NCBI RefSeq assembly: GCF_021655115.1
Contig: NZ_PPXY01000003.1
Location: 1-64,000 of the forward strand
Length of the DNA stretch: 64,000 nucleotides
Direction: 5' to 3'
From: Clostridium sp. Cult3
Lineage (GTDB): Bacteria > Bacillota > Clostridia > Tissierellales > Tepidimicrobiaceae
The notes below the pieces were generated by a model that saw only the letters and a program-made list of their open reading frames with translations, had not been told where the DNA came from and ran no database searches. This document shows, one piece after another, positions 35,216 to 44,799 of this stretch (position 1 is the first letter of the stretch; each line of letters starts with the position of its first letter). The position numbers and the translations under genes were made by a program.

Positions 35216-36115
35216 CTATATATTATCAAAGGCTACTTTAGCCGCTCCTATCATCCCAGAATCGTTGAGATATTTAGCCGGTAGAATCACCGTTCCATCT
35301 GGATTATTACAATTTTTATTGTAGTATTCTAGCATTTCATCCCACCAGTATTCCCTAGAATTTATGACACCTCCGCCGAGGATTATTCCTTCTGGATCAA
35401 ATATATTTTTAATGCTTATTAGATACATGCCTAAATCCTTGATATACTTTTCTACAGCTTCTTTTGCCTTTTCATCCTCTTGAGAATTTTTAAATATTTC
35501 CTTACCCTTTAGTCTTTTGCCGGTCATATCATAATAGGTTTTTTCAATGGCATTGCCGGAGACGTATTGCTCTACACAGCCTTTTTGACCGCAATTACAC
35601 TGTCTGCCATTAGGATATAGAATTACATGGCCCAGTTCTGCCCCTTGATAGTTTTTACCATACCATATGCCTGCTTTTTGGGAGTATATGCCACCTCCTA
35701 CACCTGTGCCTAAGGTTAACATCACGAAGCTATGTAAACCTTTAGCTGCTCCTAGCCATTCTTCACATATGGCAGCTACATTGGCATCATTTTCTACAAA
35801 AATAGGTATATCTTTAAATTCCTTAGACAGTTCTTCTCTTATCTTGGTATAAGCCCAGCCTTCTATATTGCCTCCTATAGATAGAACCTTGCCTTCCCTT
35901 ACATCTATAAAGCCTGGAGAACCTAAACCAATGGCATCTACTTTTTCGCCTTTCATTAGCTCTTCTATGACTTCCGATATCCTATTTAATACCACTTGTC
36001 TTCCTTGATGAGCCTGGGAATCCCTAGAAGCTCTTTTCAATATCTCACCCTTTTCATCAATAATACCACCATATATGCTAGTACCACCTAGATCTATGCC
36101 TATTGCTTTTTTCAT
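35216..36115 (-). CDS. ROK-family sugar kinase (glucokinase/N-acetyl-amino-sugar kinase-like)
   Basis: A 299-residue ROK kinase without a DNA-binding domain. Motifs: ATP loop GIDLGGTSIYGG, catalytic Asp in VENDANVAAICEEWLGA, and the Zn-binding signature GRQCNCGQKGCVEQYVSG. ROK kinases phosphorylate glucose, N-acetylglucosamine, N-acetylmannosamine and others. The NagZ-like glycosidase gene just upstream releases N-acetylglucosamine, so that sugar is the most natural substrate here, by inference. ATG after GGGAGATATTCAT. It lies 42 bp after the glycosidase gene. Confidence 0.9.
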   Translation of the reverse strand: MKKAIGIDLGGTSIYGGIIDEKGEILKRASRDSQAHQGRQVVLNRISEVIEELMKGEKVDAIGLGSPGFIDVREGKVLSIGGNIEGWAYTKIREELSKEFKDIPIFVENDANVAAICEEWLGAAKGLHSFVMLTLGTGVGGGIYSQKAGIWYGKNYQGAELGHVILYPNGRQCNCGQKGCVEQYVSGNAIEKTYYDMTGKRLKGKEIFKNSQEDEKAKEAVEKYIKDLGMYLISIKNIFDPEGIILGGGVINSREYWWDEMLEYYNKNCNNPDGTVILPAKYLNDSGMIGAAKVAFDNI

Positions 36116-36157: not shown

Positions 36158-37399
36158 TTATTTAAATTCTTTTATCTTATCTAATAACAACTGTGTATCA
36201 TGGTTTATGGATTGTATATCTTCCGAATCTACGATTTCGTCAGAAATATTATATTTATCCTTAAGTTTCAAGATCCTATATAGCTTTTCGTCTAATGCTT
36301 CTTCTCTAATATTTCCCCTTTCTACTTCCTCTTTGATCCTTTGGATTACCTTAATTGGTTCATCATGTCCATGACATATAAGTAGGATATCCCCACCGGC
36401 TTTTAAATAGCTTACAGCTGCATCTTCTATTTCATAGTTCTTGGCTATAGCCCCCATGGTCATATCGTCTGAGATGACCACACCATCAAAAAATAGTTTT
36501 TCCCTTAATATATCGGTTATTATCTTTTTAGATAAGGTTGCAGGGTAGGTATCATCTATTTGGGGAAACATTATATGGCCTATCATTACCCCATCTACTC
36601 CTGCTTCTATTCCCCTGGTAAAAGGAATTAATTCCAAATGTTCTATCTGTGTTAACCCTTTATCTACTATAGGTATATTGATATGGGAATCTGCAGATGT
36701 ATCTCCATGGCCTGGAAAATGCTTTATGATGGGTATTATGTTTTCGGAGTTAATACCATTCATCACTTGGATTCCAGTATTACTTACTATATCAACGGTG
36801 GCCCCAAAGGCTCTATCTCCTATTACTGGATTTTGAGGATTGGAGTTTACATCCATCACTGGCGCAAAGTTCATATTGAAACCTATGGATTTAATCCTTC
36901 TACCTAATATTTTACCATATTGGAAAGAAATATTTTTATCATTTATATCCCCTATTTTCTTCGCCGTTGGTAATTTTAAAAATGGATAGGGTAGTCTACG
37001 GACTCTCCCTCCTTCTTCATCTATGGATAAAAACAAGGGTATAGGATTGGTTTTGTTGGTATCCTTTAGGGTATTCAATAATTCAGTTGTCTGTTCAACG
37101 CTAGATATATTCTCCCTAAATAGTATAAATCCTCCTATATGATATTTTTTTATCATAGTCTCTACCCGTTCATCTATTGATGTGCCATTAAACCCAATTA
37201 TCAACAATTGACCAATTTTTTCATCTAAGGTCATAGAGTTTATTAACTCTACTATCTCGTCTATATCTTCAGTTTCTTCTCCTAGCTCATCGTCAACTTG
37301 ATTAGAGTTGTTATCTATGATTTCCTCCTGAGATTTTGTACAACTAGATAGAACTAGCATCAAACCTAGTATTATTAATATGTAAAATTTATTGTTCAT
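36158..37399 (-). CDS. nagZ: Glycoside hydrolase family 3 beta-N-acetylglucosaminidase lipoprotein (NagZ-like)
   Basis: A 413-residue lipoprotein (lipobox VLSSC at about 16-20), acidic linker, then a GH3 domain from about residue 45. It holds the NagZ signature KHFPGHGDTSADSH (flexible-loop Asp/His acid-base pair) and the nucleophile in VISDDMTMGA. Such enzymes remove N-acetylglucosamine from muropeptides. The lipoprotein signal places it outside the membrane, as in Bacillus NagZ, not in the cytoplasm as in E. coli. It forms part of the muropeptide-recycling set here and is followed by the ROK kinase gene. Confidence 0.92.
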   Translation of the reverse strand: MNNKFYILIILGLMLVLSSCTKSQEEIIDNNSNQVDDELGEETEDIDEIVELINSMTLDEKIGQLLIIGFNGTSIDERVETMIKKYHIGGFILFRENISSVEQTTELLNTLKDTNKTNPIPLFLSIDEEGGRVRRLPYPFLKLPTAKKIGDINDKNISFQYGKILGRRIKSIGFNMNFAPVMDVNSNPQNPVIGDRAFGATVDIVSNTGIQVMNGINSENIIPIIKHFPGHGDTSADSHINIPIVDKGLTQIEHLELIPFTRGIEAGVDGVMIGHIMFPQIDDTYPATLSKKIITDILREKLFFDGVVISDDMTMGAIAKNYEIEDAAVSYLKAGGDILLICHGHDEPIKVIQRIKEEVERGNIREEALDEKLYRILKLKDKYNISDEIVDSEDIQSINHDTQLLLDKIKEFK

Positions 37400-37506: not shown

Positions 37507-37543
37507 AAATTTTAAATACATTAGCTATTTCTTTTAACCCTTC

Positions 37544-38530
37544 CTATAATCCTGATGTTCTTGGTTTAAAATATTTATTACAACTCCCCCCTGCTAATCT
37601 ATTCATATATTCTTCCATTTCCTCCTCATTGGCCAATACAAAGTGCCCTGGCTCTATTTCTATCCACTTTGCTGGATCCTTCCTATAATTATGACAGTTT
37701 GGATCATATACTTCCAGAGTTTTTTTCTTTTCTTTAATAGGATCGGGTATAGGGATAGCTGATAGTAGGGCTCTAGTATAGGGGTGCAATGGATTTTCAA
37801 ATAGTTTGTCCGTTTCAGCTAATTCTACTATTTTGCCCTTATGGATTACTGCCAGTCTATCGGTAATAAATCTCACTACCGATAGGTCATGGGCGATAAA
37901 CAAATAGGTTAGATTCTTTTCCTTTTGAAGCTCCGATAGCAGGTTTAACACTTGGGCCCGTATGGATACGTCTAAGGCAGAAATAGGCTCATCAGCGATG
38001 ATAAACTCCGGTTCCATTACCAAGGCCCTAGCAATGCCTATTCTTTGCCTCTGACCTCCAGAGAATTCGTGGGGGAAGCGGGAAACAAATTCTGGTAACA
38101 ACCCTACATCCAATAGGGCTTTTTCTACTTTGGACTTCCTTTCTTCTTCATTTTTGTAGTTTTTTATATTGTATAATCCTTCAGATACAATATAGTCTAC
38201 CTTAGCTCTTTCGTTTAATGAGGCCATAGGATCTTGAAATATCATCTGAATTTTTCTAGTCAATTGTTTGTCTAGTTCCTTGCTAATCTTTCCATTTATC
38301 TTCTGTCCTTTATAGAAAATTTCGCCACTAGCAGTTTCGTTTATACGGGCAATAGCTCTACCAATAGTAGTTTTGCCTGATCCTGATTCCCCTACTAATC
38401 CAAAGGTTTCTCCTTTGTATATATGGAAAGATACACCGTCTACAGCAACAAATTTGTCCTTTCTTTTCTTGCCAAATTCCACCCGTAAGTTTTTTACTTC
38501 TAATAGAATTTCCTTTCTAAAGTCCTTCAT
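37544..38530 (-). CDS. oppF: Oligopeptide ABC transporter ATPase (OppF-like)
   Basis: A 328-residue ATPase: Walker [10 protein letters not shown], signature FSGGQRQR, Walker [14 protein letters not shown]-loop IAHDLSV. The C-terminal oligopeptide-type extension contains [17 protein letters not shown] and a late Cys. ATG at 38530 lies six bases after GGAGG; the open frame extends to 38536. It overlaps the end of oppD by 14 bases, so the two ATPases are translationally coupled. It should power peptide import with OppBC, but those genes are deleted here, so its product may be idle or serve another permease. Confidence 0.92.
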
Positions 38531-39572
38531 CTCCACCCTCCCTCCATTGTCGACGTAAATTAGCTATAAAATCAGGGGGATCTACCTTTGGTGCCCTAGG
38601 ATCTAATAGCCAAGTTTTAGCTTTGTGGGTAGGGCTTACTTGAAAATAGGGAGGTCTTTTAATAAAATCTATTTTCAATGCCTTTTTATTACGTGGAGCA
38701 AAGGCATCACCTTTGATTTCATTAAACAGATTTGGCGGTGTACCCTTTATGGCATACAATAGTTCACCTTTAACCCCTAGTTGAGGCAAAGAAGAAAGCA
38801 ATGCCCATGTGTAGGGATGTTGAGGATTGTAAAACACTTCTTCAGAAGTCCCAATTTCTATGATATCTCCTGCATACATTACTGCAATTCTATCTGCAAT
38901 ATTGGCTACCACCCCCAAATCATGAGTGATGTATATGGTGGTTAGATTGTACTTTTTCTGTAATTCTTTCAATAGATTTAATATTTGAGCCTGAATAGTA
39001 ACATCTAAAGCAGTAGTAGGTTCATCACAGATGAGTATCTTAGGCTTACAGGCAATGGCGATAGCTATTACTACCCTTTGTCTCATGCCTCCTGAAAATT
39101 CATGGGGATATTGGTAGTACCGTTTTTCAGCCTCTGGTATGCCTACATCTTCTAGCATTTGAAGAGTGACTTCTTTTGCCTTATCTCCCTTTAAACCTTG
39201 ATGGAGTATTACCGCTTCTTCCACTTGACTCCCTATGGTCTTTAATGGGTTTAAGGAGGTCATAGGCTCTTGAAATACCATAGCAAATTCTTTACCTCGA
39301 AGGTTTATCCAATCATCTTCTACCTCATAGGTAGCAAGATCCTCTCCTTTATATATTATGCTTCCAGAATCAATCCAACCATTGGTATCTAGTAATCCCA
39401 TGAAGCTTTTAACAAGGACGGATTTACCAGCCCCAGATTCCCCTACAATAGCTAGGCTTTCACCTTCATATAGGTCTAAAGAGGCTTCTCTGATGGCAGT
39501 TAATATATTCCCTCGTAAATTAAATTTAATGACTAAATTTTTTACGGATAGTATGACCTTATCTCTTTTCAT
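38517..39572 (-). CDS. oppD: Oligopeptide ABC transporter ATPase (OppD-like)
   Basis: A 351-residue ATPase: Walker [11 protein letters not shown], signature FSGGMRQRV, Walker [16 protein letters not shown]-loop THDLGV. The OppD/DppD-type C-terminal part ([18 protein letters not shown]) carries few Cys, so the Fe-S set seen in some relatives seems absent. ATG after GGAGGGATATAT. It lies 11 bp after the broken oppC and is followed by oppF. The intact state of oppD and oppF contrasts with the loss of oppA and oppB, suggesting the deletion is recent. Confidence 0.93.
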
Positions 39573-39583
39573 ATATATCCCTC

Positions 39584-40084
39584 CTAGACATGATTTCTTG
39601 GATCCGCTGCATCAGCAAATACATTACCTATTACATAGAAGGATATGGTGATAAGAGAAAGTACAATAGCTGGAAATATCAATTGATAGCGTAATGCTGG
39701 CACCATCATAACATGTCTACCTTCATTGATTAGGTTTCCTAAGGATGGAATACTGGTAGGAAGACCTAATCCAATATAAGTTAGAAATACTTCAGAACCT
39801 ATGGCAGCTGGAATAGCTAAGGCCATTCTTAACATTATAACGGAAACCAAATAGGGAAGTAAATTTCTAAATATGATCCTTCTAGTAGGGGTTCCTAAAC
39901 ATCTGGAGGCTAAATTGTATTCCCTGTCCCTTATGATGACTATTTGATTCCTAACAAATCTGGCCATGCCTAACCATCCTGTCATGCACATGGCAAATAT
40001 CATAGTGGATACGCTAGGTTTCATGATATAGGTTAATAGTATAAGGACTATGGTAGTAGGAATATTGTTGATTACGATGTGTAT
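39584..40084 (-). pseudogene. oppC: oppC remnant (3' half of oligopeptide permease)
   Basis: The readable frame matches only the second half of an OppC/DppC permease. It begins HIVINNIPTTIVLILLTYI and contains the EAA loop EYNLASRCLGTPTRRIIFRNLLP. It ends correctly with ADAADPRNHV. About the first 150 residues (first helices and periplasmic loop) are missing. Upstream the frame runs directly into the start of an oppA-like gene with no transition. An internal ATG at 40024 could allow a 146-residue fragment, but this would lack several helices. I treat it as a deletion pseudogene; the exact junction lies near 40075-40095. Confidence 0.8.
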
Positions 40085-40185
40085 TCCTGAATTGCAGCTA
40101 TATTTTCTCCAGAGGTTTTTTTACCTCCTGAACATCCAGTCATAAGTACTAACAATGCCATCATCAAAGCTATTAGTCTTTTCAC
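40072..40185 (-). pseudogene. oppA-like lipoprotein remnant (5' end only)
   Basis: GTG at 40185, preceded by GAGGAGGG, opens a lipoprotein signal peptide with lipobox LMTGC, followed by SGGKKTSGENIAAIQ. This matches the start of an extracellular solute-binding protein. The frame stops at 40072 after 37 codons because the body of the gene is missing. The same DNA then continues in another frame as the middle of oppC. All of oppB and most of oppA are gone. The promoter region and ribosome binding site look intact. Confidence 0.75.
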
Positions 40186-40297
40186 ATTATCCCTCCTCAA
40201 TATATTATCTAGATATAAACAACTAACCCCTTTCCAAAAAATCTCTTTTCCATTGAAGTAGTTTTAACCATTGACAAAATATTCTGATAATTTATGC

Positions 40298-40313
40298 TGC
40301 CTAGGGCCTCCCA
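40298..40313 (-). promoter_or_regulatory. Candidate sigma-54 promoter for the opp cluster
   Basis: On the minus strand TGGGAGGCCCTAGGCA offers GG and GC with the required 10-bp spacing between them, about 113 bp before the oppA-like start. The match outside GG/GC is modest, and the motif sits in a short GC-rich palindrome. It is supported mainly by the adjacent sigma-54 activator gene. The rest of 40186-40356 shows no other structure I can name. Confidence 0.35.
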
Positions 40314-40356
40314 GCCCCTCTGTTCAGAATCTTTCCCAATATCCGTATTCATTCTA

Positions 40357-42210
40357 TTATATTTCATATCTCCTTATTTTTTCATAGAGGGTAGTCTTGC
40401 TAATATCTAAAGCTTTCATGGTTTTTTTCTTGTCCCCATCATAATGATCTAAGGCTCTTTGAATCAATTTCTTTTCATAGTTCTGAACAGCTTCTTTTAA
40501 TGGAGTTATTCCCTTAAAATTAGTTTCTTCCTGACCCACATCTATGGCTATATGTTTGGATAATATAGCCTTGCCTTCCGATAGATTAATAGCCCTTTCT
40601 AATATGTTTTCTAACTCCCTTATATTACCTGGCCAATCATATTTAGTAAGTAGGTTCATAGCTTCTGCAGATATTCTCTTATCTTCGCCTCCCACTTCCC
40701 TACATATTCTAGGCAATATTTCATCCACTAATAGGTGAATATCTTCTATTCTCTCCCTTAGGGGAGGTATCCATATGGGAAACACATTGATCCTATAGTA
40801 TAGGTCTTCTCGGAATCTTCCTTCTAACATTTCCTCCTCTAAATTTTTGTTGGTTGCGGCAATGACCCTAATATCTACTTGTACCTTTTCCATTCCTCCT
40901 ACCCTATAGAAAGACTTATCTTGAAGAACTTGCAATAATTTCACCTGTAAATTAGGTGGGATGTCTCCAATTTCATCTAGAAATATGGTTCCTCCATTGG
41001 CCATTTCAAAGTATCCTATTTTTCCTTCCTTCCTAGCACCAGTAAATGCTCCTCTTTCATATCCAAATAGTTCTGATTCCAAAAGGGTACCAGGTATAGC
41101 TCCACAGTTTACATGTATAAAAGGCTTGTCTTTAAATCTGCTATTTTGGTGAATTGATTTTGCTAATACGGTTTTTCCTGTGCCGCTTTCTCCTAGTATT
41201 AATACGGTAGAATTTGTCTTAGAGGCTTTTAGGGCTAGCTTTTTCACATGGTTTATCTCTCTGCTCTCCCCTAATATATTAGGAAAAGCTTTTTCTAAAA
41301 CCTCTTCTTCTTTTAGTTGCCCTTCCATCCTTTCCAAATCCAAAAGAGCTTCGTCCCTTTCGCTGATTATTCTTTTTATTTCCGATATATCTTCTACTTT
41401 TAGTGCAGCACCTATCCTCTTTCCATCCTTATCTACAGCCATCAAGGTGCACATGGTAGGAAATCCATTTATCTCCTTAAATTGGTCTATATAGCTGATA
41501 TTTTCACCTTTGGCCACCCTATAGAATTCATTGATAGTAGTACTGCCTGGATGGATTTCAAATATATTTTTGCCTATAACGTTTAATACTTCCGTGTTTT
41601 CCCCCTTGGCTCTATATTGACCGCCTTTCAATATATCATTTATGCTTTCGCCCCTAGCCGTATAGCCTTGGGCTTGGTAAAATTTCATCTTCTTAGTTCT
41701 TCCGTCTATTAATACCATATGGCCTATAGCATTTATATAGTTCATGGAAAATTTTTCACCATCTACTTCAATGGTAACTATCTTGTTGACAAAATCTATA
41801 CTCACTCCTACATTAATTCCTAGATAATTGGTATTTAGTTTAAAAGTATCTTCTATATTCTCCTTTTTTAAGTATTTATATATAGGAGGAACTCCAGGTT
41901 GATGAAGCAATCCTACAGCTATTAGGGCATCACCTTTTTGTATGTTTTCATCTTCTATTCCCAAACATTTTAGAGATGTGGAGTCTAAATTTCCATCGTC
42001 TCGACCCAAGGAATTGTCTCCAACTATAACAATATCTCCTTTTTTGATTTGACCTTTGCCATGACTTATCTGTTGGTTGTGGGATATACCAAAAATATCC
42101 TTGGCTTTATCATTATATATCTGGATGATTCCATCCTTATCTATGACAATGAAACCCTCGGACATCATATTGGTAAATAGTTTTGTAAAGTATTCAGAAT
42201 TATAAATCAC
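40357..42210 (-). CDS. Sigma-54-dependent transcriptional activator with PAS domains
   Basis: A 617-residue bacterial enhancer-binding protein. PAS domain near the N-terminus (about 5-45: EGFIVIDKDGIIQIYNDKAKDIFG), a middle region with a second PAS-like sensor (about 200-280), then the AAA+ domain from about 310: GESGTGKT, ELFGYERGAFTGARKEG (the GAFTGA loop that contacts sigma-54), FLDEIGDIPP, and RVIAATN. A Fis-type HTH closes it (KKTMKALDISKTTLYEKIRRY). GTG start after AGGGTGATTAG. It lies between the dipeptide epimerase and the opp genes on the same strand and probably controls one or both sets. Confidence 0.95.
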   Translation of the reverse strand: MIYNSEYFTKLFTNMMSEGFIVIDKDGIIQIYNDKAKDIFGISHNQQISHGKGQIKKGDIVIVGDNSLGRDDGNLDSTSLKCLGIEDENIQKGDALIAVGLLHQPGVPPIYKYLKKENIEDTFKLNTNYLGINVGVSIDFVNKIVTIEVDGEKFSMNYINAIGHMVLIDGRTKKMKFYQAQGYTARGESINDILKGGQYRAKGENTEVLNVIGKNIFEIHPGSTTINEFYRVAKGENISYIDQFKEINGFPTMCTLMAVDKDGKRIGAALKVEDISEIKRIISERDEALLDLERMEGQLKEEEVLEKAFPNILGESREINHVKKLALKASKTNSTVLILGESGTGKTVLAKSIHQNSRFKDKPFIHVNCGAIPGTLLESELFGYERGAFTGARKEGKIGYFEMANGGTIFLDEIGDIPPNLQVKLLQVLQDKSFYRVGGMEKVQVDIRVIAATNKNLEEEMLEGRFREDLYYRINVFPIWIPPLRERIEDIHLLVDEILPRICREVGGEDKRISAEAMNLLTKYDWPGNIRELENILERAINLSEGKAILSKHIAIDVGQEETNFKGITPLKEAVQNYEKKLIQRALDHYDGDKKKTMKALDISKTTLYEKIRRYEI

Positions 42211-42221
42211 CTAATCACCCT

Positions 42222-43310
42222 TTAGTCGTATATTACATCTTCCAGTTCGTCGAATCCAAAACCTGGCCTATCCTCCAGCTTTATCTTATATTCCTGGTAT
42301 ATAGCACCTCCCTCAATAGGGTCTTCTGCTAATAGATTGGGACTATCTAGATCGAATTTGGTTATATTCTTCTTACCTCCTGCTAGATGGGTAGCTGCCG
42401 TCAACCCAATTTTGCTTTCCATCATACAGCCAATCATACATTCTACCTGGAAGATCTCCGCTATGTGACATATTTTTAAAGCATTGTGTATTCCTCCAGT
42501 TTTCATCAACTTTATATTTACCATGTCTGCCGCTCTATTTTGTATTATATTTATTGCATCCAAAGGCGAAAAACAACTTTCATCAGCAAGTATAAGGGTA
42601 TTTACATTGTCCCTTACAAATTTTAAACCCTTTAGATCCTTGGCTTTAACCGGTTGTTCTACAAGTTCTATATCCAGATCTAAATCCTCCATATGTCTTA
42701 TGACCATTACCGCTTCCTTAGGAGTCCAACCTTGATTGGCGTCGATTCTAATCTGTCTATCATATCCAACAGCTTTTCGTATAGCCTTTAGCCTTTCTAA
42801 GTCCTTTCTCCAATCCTTGCCTACTTTTATCTTCAAGGTTTCATAGCCTTTCTCAATGGCCTCTAGACTGTCTTCTACCATCTCTTCCGGTTCATTGACA
42901 CTTATGGTTATATCCGTAGTTATTTCATTTCTAAAGCCACCTAATAACTTGTAAACCGGTATATTATATAACTGGCCATACAAATCATATAGTGCCATAT
43001 CTACTGCTGCTTTAGGGCTTGAATTGTTTACTAGGGAATTGTCCAGTATATACATTAGCTCTTCGAAATTTTCTATGGATCTATTCGTTATATTGGGGCC
43101 TATATGCTCCATTATAGCCCATTTAATAGAACCCATAATATCTCCTGTAATAACAGGCGTAATGGCAGCTTCACCATAACCAATATGGCCTGTGTCCGTT
43201 GTAATCTTTACCACTACATTTTCTAATACCTCTACCTCCCTCAAAGCAGTTTTGAAGGGTTTTTTTAATGGGATGCTGATTTCACCTACCTGTACATCTT
43301 TAATTTTCAT
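42222..43310 (-). CDS. Dipeptide epimerase (L-Ala-D/L-Glu epimerase-like, enolase superfamily)
   Basis: A 362-residue muconate-lactonizing-type enolase-superfamily enzyme. Catalytic signatures: LKIKVGKDW (KxK), RIDANQGW (Asp metal ligand), LVEQP (Glu), ILADES (Asp) and NIKLMKTGG (second Lys). The order and spacing match AEEs that interconvert L-Ala-D-Glu and L-Ala-L-Glu during muropeptide recycling. ATG at 43310 lies after AGAGGTGGAGTTTATC; a GTG four codons earlier overlaps that site. It follows the NlpC/P60 gene, the same pairing as ykfB/ykfC in Bacillus, and precedes the sigma-54 activator by 12 bp. Confidence 0.93.
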   Translation of the reverse strand: MKIKDVQVGEISIPLKKPFKTALREVEVLENVVVKITTDTGHIGYGEAAITPVITGDIMGSIKWAIMEHIGPNITNRSIENFEELMYILDNSLVNNSSPKAAVDMALYDLYGQLYNIPVYKLLGGFRNEITTDITISVNEPEEMVEDSLEAIEKGYETLKIKVGKDWRKDLERLKAIRKAVGYDRQIRIDANQGWTPKEAVMVIRHMEDLDLDIELVEQPVKAKDLKGLKFVRDNVNTLILADESCFSPLDAINIIQNRAADMVNIKLMKTGGIHNALKICHIAEIFQVECMIGCMMESKIGLTAATHLAGGKKNITKFDLDSPNLLAEDPIEGGAIYQEYKIKLEDRPGFGFDELEDVIYD

Positions 43311-43393
43311 GATAAACTCCACCTCTATTAATATATTAATAAGATTATACCACTAAGATTCAATTTATCCTAGTATAATATTAAAGCACTGCT

Positions 43394-43415
43394 GTATATC
43401 CCCTAGGGGATATAC
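43394..43415. promoter_or_regulatory. Perfect 22-bp palindrome over the NlpC/P60 stop codon
   Basis: Arm GTATATCCCCT is followed directly by its exact complement, with no loop. It spans the stop codon of the NlpC/P60 gene and lies about 84 bp before the dipeptide epimerase start. An operator is more likely than a terminator, since there is no loop and no T-run. Confidence 0.45.
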
Positions 43416-44758
43416 TCCTTTGCTAAATATACCATCTCAATATAGGTTTTTTCTGATGAGGCTTTAATGTCTACAGGGGTTACAGCGGTTTTCATAACTG
43501 AAATATATTCTAAGCCTCCTTCTGTTTCCTCGTAATAGCCAGCAAACTGATGTATCATATAGTGTTTGCCTTCATGCTGACCTAAATATAGCATAGTATG
43601 GCCTGGCATGTATAGTATGCTAGCTGGAGGCAATGTCTCTAAAGCTTCCAATCCTTCGCCAAGGGTTCTCATAGAGCTAAAGTCATATAGCTTGCCTATA
43701 TTATTTTTTCCTTGGTCTATGGTATTTCTAGGTAACATAATTCCGAAGCTTCTGTGAATATCCATGATGAAAGCTGAGCAGTCCCTGGTGTTGTTCATAC
43801 CACCCCACCCGTATTCTTCGTCTTTAAATTTGAAGGCTTGTAGTAGTATGTTCTCTTTAGTATAAGGTAGATAACCTTGATGGAGGCTATTAGATTTCGC
43901 CAATTCCTTTTCTATAAAAAATAAATTGTCTTTATCTCCTTTTTTAGGGATCAATATCCTATAGCTGTTATCCCCTTCATCTATTAATGGTATTCGAACT
44001 CCCATATCATACAATGTATCGTCTATGGATATCTGCCTGTCTATAACCATTAGAAAATCCTGGCTATGGGTTAGATGAAATATTTCATCCCTGTCTCCTA
44101 GAGCCACATCCTCTTTAGGTATCCAACCTATATAATTGTACGTTCTGCCAAAATACCATAGTCCATCTCTACTTTCCCAGTATAGGATCAAGGGTTCCCA
44201 AGGATAGATGGCTGTTTCCATAAATCTATCAAATTGATAATCGTCTTTTTTGTTATAGGAGGTTTCAAAGGTAGGAAAGGTTCTTATCATGGTCCTATTT
44301 ATAGCAATGCCATATTGAATATGAACCCTGTCCTCAATGGAATCTAAATTCATATTGGATATTAGATGGTTGTAGAAATCCTTATCCATTAAATTTCCAT
44401 TGGAATCATACCTTTCCTCCTTAGGTACTTTGCTCAGGCTTTGTATTAGTGATAGGATATCCTCCTTATCTGCGCTGGCTTCATGTTCTCTTAAATCCAT
44501 CAGGGATTCCTCTTTTTGAAAGCTCCTTTTGTTATATTCTTCTATATCTGTGGAATTCATTAGTAGCTGGTCTTTGGGCTGGATCTTGCTGATCCAAAAT
44601 TCCCCATCTTCAAGGGTTAAAGTTCTTTCATCTATGGGAATATTCATCTCCTCCTCTTCATTATTTTCTTTGAGATATTCCTTAGGTTGGGTTTTTAGTA
44701 GATATATAGCTATAATTAAAAGCACTATAATGGCTATTAGTTTGTACTTGGTTTTCAA
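43403..44758 (-). CDS. NlpC/P60 peptidoglycan endopeptidase with SH3 domains (YkfC-like)
   Basis: A 451-residue extracytoplasmic enzyme: N-terminal membrane anchor or signal (about 5-22), linker, two SH3b-like domains (about 135-300), and a C-terminal NlpC/P60 domain. The domain carries YGWGGMNNTRDCSAFIMDIHRSFGI (catalytic Cys) and PGHTMLYLG (catalytic His). The family cleaves gamma-D-Glu to diamino acid bonds in muropeptides. Start taken as TTG at 44758 because GAGG lies eight bases upstream; GTG at 44767 overlaps that site. First gene of the recycling cluster, followed by the epimerase. Confidence 0.92.
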   Translation of the reverse strand: MKTKYKLIAIIVLLIIAIYLLKTQPKEYLKENNEEEEMNIPIDERTLTLEDGEFWISKIQPKDQLLMNSTDIEEYNKRSFQKEESLMDLREHEASADKEDILSLIQSLSKVPKEERYDSNGNLMDKDFYNHLISNMNLDSIEDRVHIQYGIAINRTMIRTFPTFETSYNKKDDYQFDRFMETAIYPWEPLILYWESRDGLWYFGRTYNYIGWIPKEDVALGDRDEIFHLTHSQDFLMVIDRQISIDDTLYDMGVRIPLIDEGDNSYRILIPKKGDKDNLFFIEKELAKSNSLHQGYLPYTKENILLQAFKFKDEEYGWGGMNNTRDCSAFIMDIHRSFGIMLPRNTIDQGKNNIGKLYDFSSMRTLGEGLEALETLPPASILYMPGHTMLYLGQHEGKHYMIHQFAGYYEETEGGLEYISVMKTAVTPVDIKASSEKTYIEMVYLAKEYIP

Positions 44759-44799
44759 TCCCATCACCTCATACGGCTTGTATTTTGGAGAAAAACTAT

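Follow-up and report, generated by a model that had tools for sequence, protein, structure and literature searches.

A 64,000-nucleotide stretch of the genome of Clostridium sp. Cult3 (hereafter, the window) contains a locus at which the beginning of oppA runs into the second half of oppC, next to an intact sigma-54-dependent activator gene. The question that it raises is whether this is an oligopeptide uptake operon in decay, an artefact of assembly or a remodelled system, and why the regulator beside it has survived. We favor decay, to which we assign a probability of about 85%: an operon that most likely served the uptake of murein peptides would have suffered at least three lesions, and its regulator would have been kept by another target. 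All of the window features described below lie on the minus strand.

The oppA–oppC junction

The remnant of oppA begins with a GTG at 40185(-), preceded by GAGGAGGG, which opens VKRLIALMMALLVLMTGCSGGKKTSGENIAAIQEYTS, a frame of 37 codons that ends with TAA. It encodes a lipoprotein signal with the lipobox LMTGC, and alignment to G010 (UBA4916) and other relatives assigned codons 1–36 of oppA to positions 40078..40185. From ∼40077, the DNA continues as the middle of oppC (HIVINNIPTT...) in a different frame from oppA, up to a stop at 39584. The oppC remnant (39584..40066), defined by the match to G010 and by Pfam (BPD_transp_1, E=3e-21), comprises the last 160 codons of the gene and contains no internal stops. 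The oppA part of G010 matches positions 40078–40200 and the oppC part matches positions 39584–40066, which leaves an 11-nt deletion junction (40067..40077) assignable to neither side. These frames and the Pfam match bear out the first-pass annotation, which had described the start of oppA fused to the second half of oppC.

When compared with relatives, the locus lacks oppA codons 37–614, the entire oppB, and approximately the first 136–150 codons of oppC, much as had been estimated earlier (most of oppA, all of oppB, and ∼150 codons of oppC). The loss, measured against intact relatives, amounts to 3.19–3.31 kb, which is slightly larger than the originally proposed 2.5–3 kb; this loss of ∼3.2–3.3 kb joins oppA codon 36 to approximately oppC codon 150. 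A working Opp importer requires a solute-binding protein (SBP_bac_5), of which only oppA codons 1–36 are present here, two transmembrane subunits, of which OppB is gone and OppC is reduced to its last 160 codons, and a pair of ATPases carrying ABC and oligo_HPY domains, which are provided by OppD and OppF, the latter with an altered tail. The permease would be inactive because the binding protein and both transmembrane subunits are lacking. A search of the Cult3 genome, which is 99.8% complete, with the oppABC DNA of G010 returned the two remnants as the only matches, and no OppA orthologue was found in this genome at E ≤ 1e-60.

A junction of this kind could also arise from a mixture of strains, or if oppABC were present in the organism and had been dropped from the assembly, which consists of 69 contigs; an intact oppC remnant would suit a missing gene rather than a dead one. 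However, a single contig of 67.5 kb spans the junction, and the missing segment is on no other contig. The sequence shared by the two breakpoints is 3–7 nt in relatives and 12 nt in G004 only, and identities of 3–12 nt are too short for assembly collapse at the usual k-mer sizes. Two further lesions in the operon and the losses in related genomes, both described below, agree with real decay, and an assembly artefact is therefore very unlikely. A short direct repeat is at best a candidate cause of the deletion, with 12 nt in G004 alone and ≤7 nt in the other relatives.

A second deletion behind oppF

The gene for OppD (38517..39572) is a full-length open reading frame with ABC domains in Pfam, intact as first annotated. 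The same had been claimed for oppF (37544..38536, open reading frame and Pfam), but this gene is native only up to approximately codon 315, and its last ∼15 residues form a foreign tail that originates from a second junction. In relatives with the full operon, oppF is followed by a gene for a 270-aa SH3-NlpC/P60 peptidase (Pfam), which in G010 stands behind oppD; in the window, nagZ comes directly after oppF. What is left of the peptidase gene is a remnant of its last ∼26 codons (37514..37591), in a frame other than that of oppF and with an internal frameshifting gap. Sixteen residues of the remnant align with GGVVINSLNPDHDDYR of the relatives' peptidase, with a local score of 65; none of 2000 shuffles scored above 31, and no other part of the window above 33. 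The 270-aa peptidase was not found elsewhere in the Cult3 genome. This second loss, of ∼0.75 kb, joins the end of oppF to these last ∼26 codons. In G010 itself, oppABC is intact next to the activator gene and oppD is followed at once by the peptidase gene (L031:2738-4683), so that oppF is missing from an otherwise intact operon.

Loss of the switch between the activator gene and oppA

In relatives with an intact opp operon, a sigma-54 promoter (TGGCATG-N4-TTGCW) lies between the activator gene and oppA, in most cases together with up to three TTCC-N8-GGAA palindromes. The corresponding gap in the window (40186..40356) measures 171 bp, compared with ∼294–358 bp in six family relatives, and is thus shorter by ∼120–190 bp. 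Neither a sigma-54 promoter nor an intact TTCC-N8-GGAA palindrome was found in it, and the gap keeps one degenerate activator site near 40330–40350, GAATACGGATATTGGGAAAG, with a score of 10.9. The promoter and activator sites ahead of oppA are lost or degenerate, which makes a further lesion. It had been proposed that one deletion explains the whole locus. That proposal holds for the oppA–oppC junction, but the lost promoter and activator sites and the second junction behind oppF rule it out as a full account.

Substitution rates and the age of the lesions

Compared with G010, the oppC remnant has a dN of ∼0.06 and a dS of 1.2 (dN/dS near 0.05); dS is near saturation, so these values and the change counts that follow are rough. 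The remnant carries 0–2 window-specific changes versus 4–6 comparator-specific changes. OppF likewise has no excess of changes (12 versus 8 and 13 versus 10), and OppD has accumulated 25 lineage-specific versus 4 comparator changes, 23 versus 7, and 24 versus 6 (p from 1e-4 to 3e-3). The counts leave out OppF versus L047 (a locus without oppF, where another ATPase was matched), the NagZ rows, and the pooled L047 rows. Decay as proposed here does not account for the acceleration of OppD (38517–39572), in which neither OppF nor the dead oppC remnant shares.

The loss of oppABC probably occurred recently when measured against the divergence from G010, because the oppC remnant shows neither a stop codon nor an excess of changes. 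The peptidase deletion is probably older, because the peptidase remnant is frameshifted. Had the sigma-54 promoter disappeared early, oppC could have stayed conserved up to recent times only with a different promoter or by transcriptional read-through out of the activator gene.

As a counterpoint to decay, the oppD and oppF frames are open and keep their ABC motifs. ATPases are shared among permeases in other bacteria, and OppD and OppF might have been retained to power another OppBC pair of the genome, in line with their intact ABC domains and the normal number of changes in OppF. We give this functional remodelling hardly any credence, as each of the seven other opp-type operons of the genome has an ATPase pair of its own, no sigma-54 promoter is left at the locus, and OppD has significantly more changes than its counterparts in relatives. 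On the favored reading of decay, oppD and oppF would probably be on their way out.

Neighboring genes and the state of the locus in relatives

Upstream of the activator gene, the window contains an intact enolase-superfamily epimerase gene (42222..43322; Pfam MR_MLE_C/N). The product is probably an L-Ala-D/L-Glu epimerase, which is its best NCBIfam model at 275.8 bits, under the cut-off of 500. Farther upstream is an intact gene for an SH3_6 and NlpC/P60 peptidase (43403..44767; Pfam), which provides the SH3-NlpC/P60 endopeptidase of a ykf-type cluster; the second such enzyme is the one lost behind oppF. On the other side are intact genes for a NagZ-type beta-N-acetylhexosaminidase (36158..37399; Pfam Glyco_hydro_3, NCBIfam PRK05337 over the cut-off) and a ROK-family sugar kinase (35216..36115; Pfam). 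An S66 LD-carboxypeptidase, which we counted as part of the set, is encoded at C1:32745, outside the cluster, and lies inside the cluster in several relatives. Judged from these neighboring genes, the substrate of the lost permease was most likely murein peptides.

Orthologues of the activator, with 55–83% identity, occur in 15 of 40 related genomes. An intact opp locus adjoining the same sigma-54 activator, which the first-pass annotation had suggested looking for, is found in several of them: the order activator-oppA-oppB-oppC-oppD-oppF-peptidase is kept in G011 (Clostridium ultunense DSM 10521), G004, G014, and G033, and G010 has the activator with oppABC. In G027, G040, Lutispora, Sedimentibacter, and an Alkaliphilus, opp is part of the same cluster in a slightly changed order. 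None of the relatives examined shares the short oppA–oppC junction; its presence in them would have spoken for a functional arrangement. The closest relative by activator, G016 (83%), has no opp, and its epimerase gene is reduced to the last ∼90 codons (L030:6261-6533) next to an intact activator gene. Two Anaerosalibacter genomes also lack opp at the locus and retain the activator, the epimerase, and the second peptidase. Loss or breakage of the opp operon, as judged from these gene arrangements, is thus repeated among relatives. In G017 (Clostridium sp. Cult1), oppA is found in two distant places on opposite strands (L033:8347-8925 and L113:8477-9769). The two parts overlap by 37 codons and therefore point to rearrangement or misassembly, and with the remaining oppA elsewhere we dropped this genome as a simple second case of opp loss.

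The activator and its probable lysA target

The activator gene (40357..42210) is intact and encodes a PAS-like N-terminus, an AAA+ sigma-54 interaction domain (Pfam Sigma54_activat, E=7e-70) with the GAFTGA motif in the translation, and a Fis-type helix-turn-helix DNA-binding domain (HTH_8). RpoN is also present in the Cult3 genome, which contains 12 matches to the sigma-54 promoter pattern and none to the reversed pattern. We built a matrix for the 20-nt palindrome from sequences of relatives alone and applied it to the upstream regions of 11 of the 12 promoters (all but C39:16895). Two strong sites, with scores of 14.9 and 14.5, were located at the promoter at C4:9563; the best score in the 64 kb window is 12.65, and the other ten promoters scored ≤2.2. 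No activator gene was found beside C4:9563. The gene driven by this promoter (L105:8255-9578, contig C4) is lysA, which encodes diaminopimelate decarboxylase (459.7 bits, cut-off 297.9).

A lysA gene with a sigma-54 promoter and the motif is present in 15/15 genomes with the activator (Cult3 included) versus 1/10 without it (Fisher p = 5e-6, uncorrected for relatedness of the genomes). The best lysA site scores range from 8.9 to 23.6 in genomes with the activator and from –5.3 to 3.8 in those without it, except for G036, where the site scores 20.8 and lysA is near a contig start. G016 has two lysA copies on contig C124 (L158:8931-10187 and L159:5756-7012), ∼10 kb apart and in opposite orientation, which score equally and both have upstream sites. 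The activator probably still controls lysA through binding to these putative sites. Its survival in Cult3 is probably explained by lysA as a conserved other target: the activator would persist because at least this one gene has its sites at a sigma-54 promoter.

Other permeases in the genome

The Cult3 genome encodes nine SBP_bac_5 proteins and, in addition to the broken locus, seven complete operons of the opp type, each with its own ATPase pair. Six are of the Opp/Dpp kind (C4, C11, C15, C18, C29, C39), and the one on C48 has shorter ATPases; none of the seven is orthologous to the lost permease, and they are at most candidate carriers of muropeptides. On C4, a complete oppABCDF stands directly behind lysA, whose sigma-54 promoter bears the activator's sites, and might have replaced the lost permease; in G004 and G014, the same opp operon likewise lies a few kb from lysA. 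However, a strong terminator-like hairpin stands immediately 3′ of lysA, the C4 oppA has a sigma-70-like promoter in front of it, and in most relatives the C4-type operon is not behind lysA. The C4 OppA is also GsiB/DppA-like and, across 205 residues, shares only 28% identity with the OppA of the relatives. We consider such a replacement unlikely. Because of the hairpin, we rejected the inclusion of C4 opp in the lysA transcription unit, and the operon is probably a separate unit.

Comparison with known systems and implications

Internal deletions produce pseudogenes in transporter operons, and the Cult3 locus resembles such cases in that two genes are fused out of frame, ATPase genes survive downstream, and loss is repeated in relatives. 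It differs from typical examples in its intact regulator, which probably has a target elsewhere. The decay of a transporter operon is in itself ordinary, and the point of interest is the surviving regulator. The locus provides a snapshot of one genome in which a regulator and half of a transporter remain among three scars, beside relatives that have an intact operon or none.

The cluster resembles the murein-peptide cluster ykfABCD-dpp of Bacillus (PMC2954226) in that a probable L-Ala-D/L-Glu epimerase, an SH3-NlpC/P60 peptidase, and an oligopeptide/dipeptide ABC transporter occur together; an S66 carboxypeptidase, clustered in several relatives and located on contig C1 in Cult3, adds to the likeness. 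Unlike in the Bacillus cluster, a sigma-54 activator gene lies within the Cult3 cluster, and the Cult3 permease is destroyed. A survey of sigma-54 regulation in Clostridiales lists 39 activator regulons in its Table 1 (PMC6615313). The present system has the same design, with an activator gene that adjoins its target, a sigma-54 promoter, and upstream activator sites, but 0/39 of the listed regulons have lysA, opp, or an epimerase gene as the target, so a lysA/opp regulon would be new relative to that table.

The chances seem to us evenly balanced that the activator heads a hitherto undescribed sigma-54 regulon, which would serve the use of murein peptides and diaminopimelate across Tissierellales and related clostridia. 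Its members would be lysA and oppABCDF, perhaps joined in certain genomes by the genes for the S66 carboxypeptidase and the epimerase, with the uptake branch lost repeatedly and the lysA branch kept in the lineage of Cult3. If this is true, the regulator now has to answer a signal that arises within the cell or enters via another permease, and the conserved motif ahead of lysA would tie lysine, under the control of sigma-54, to the recycling of diaminopimelate from the cell wall.
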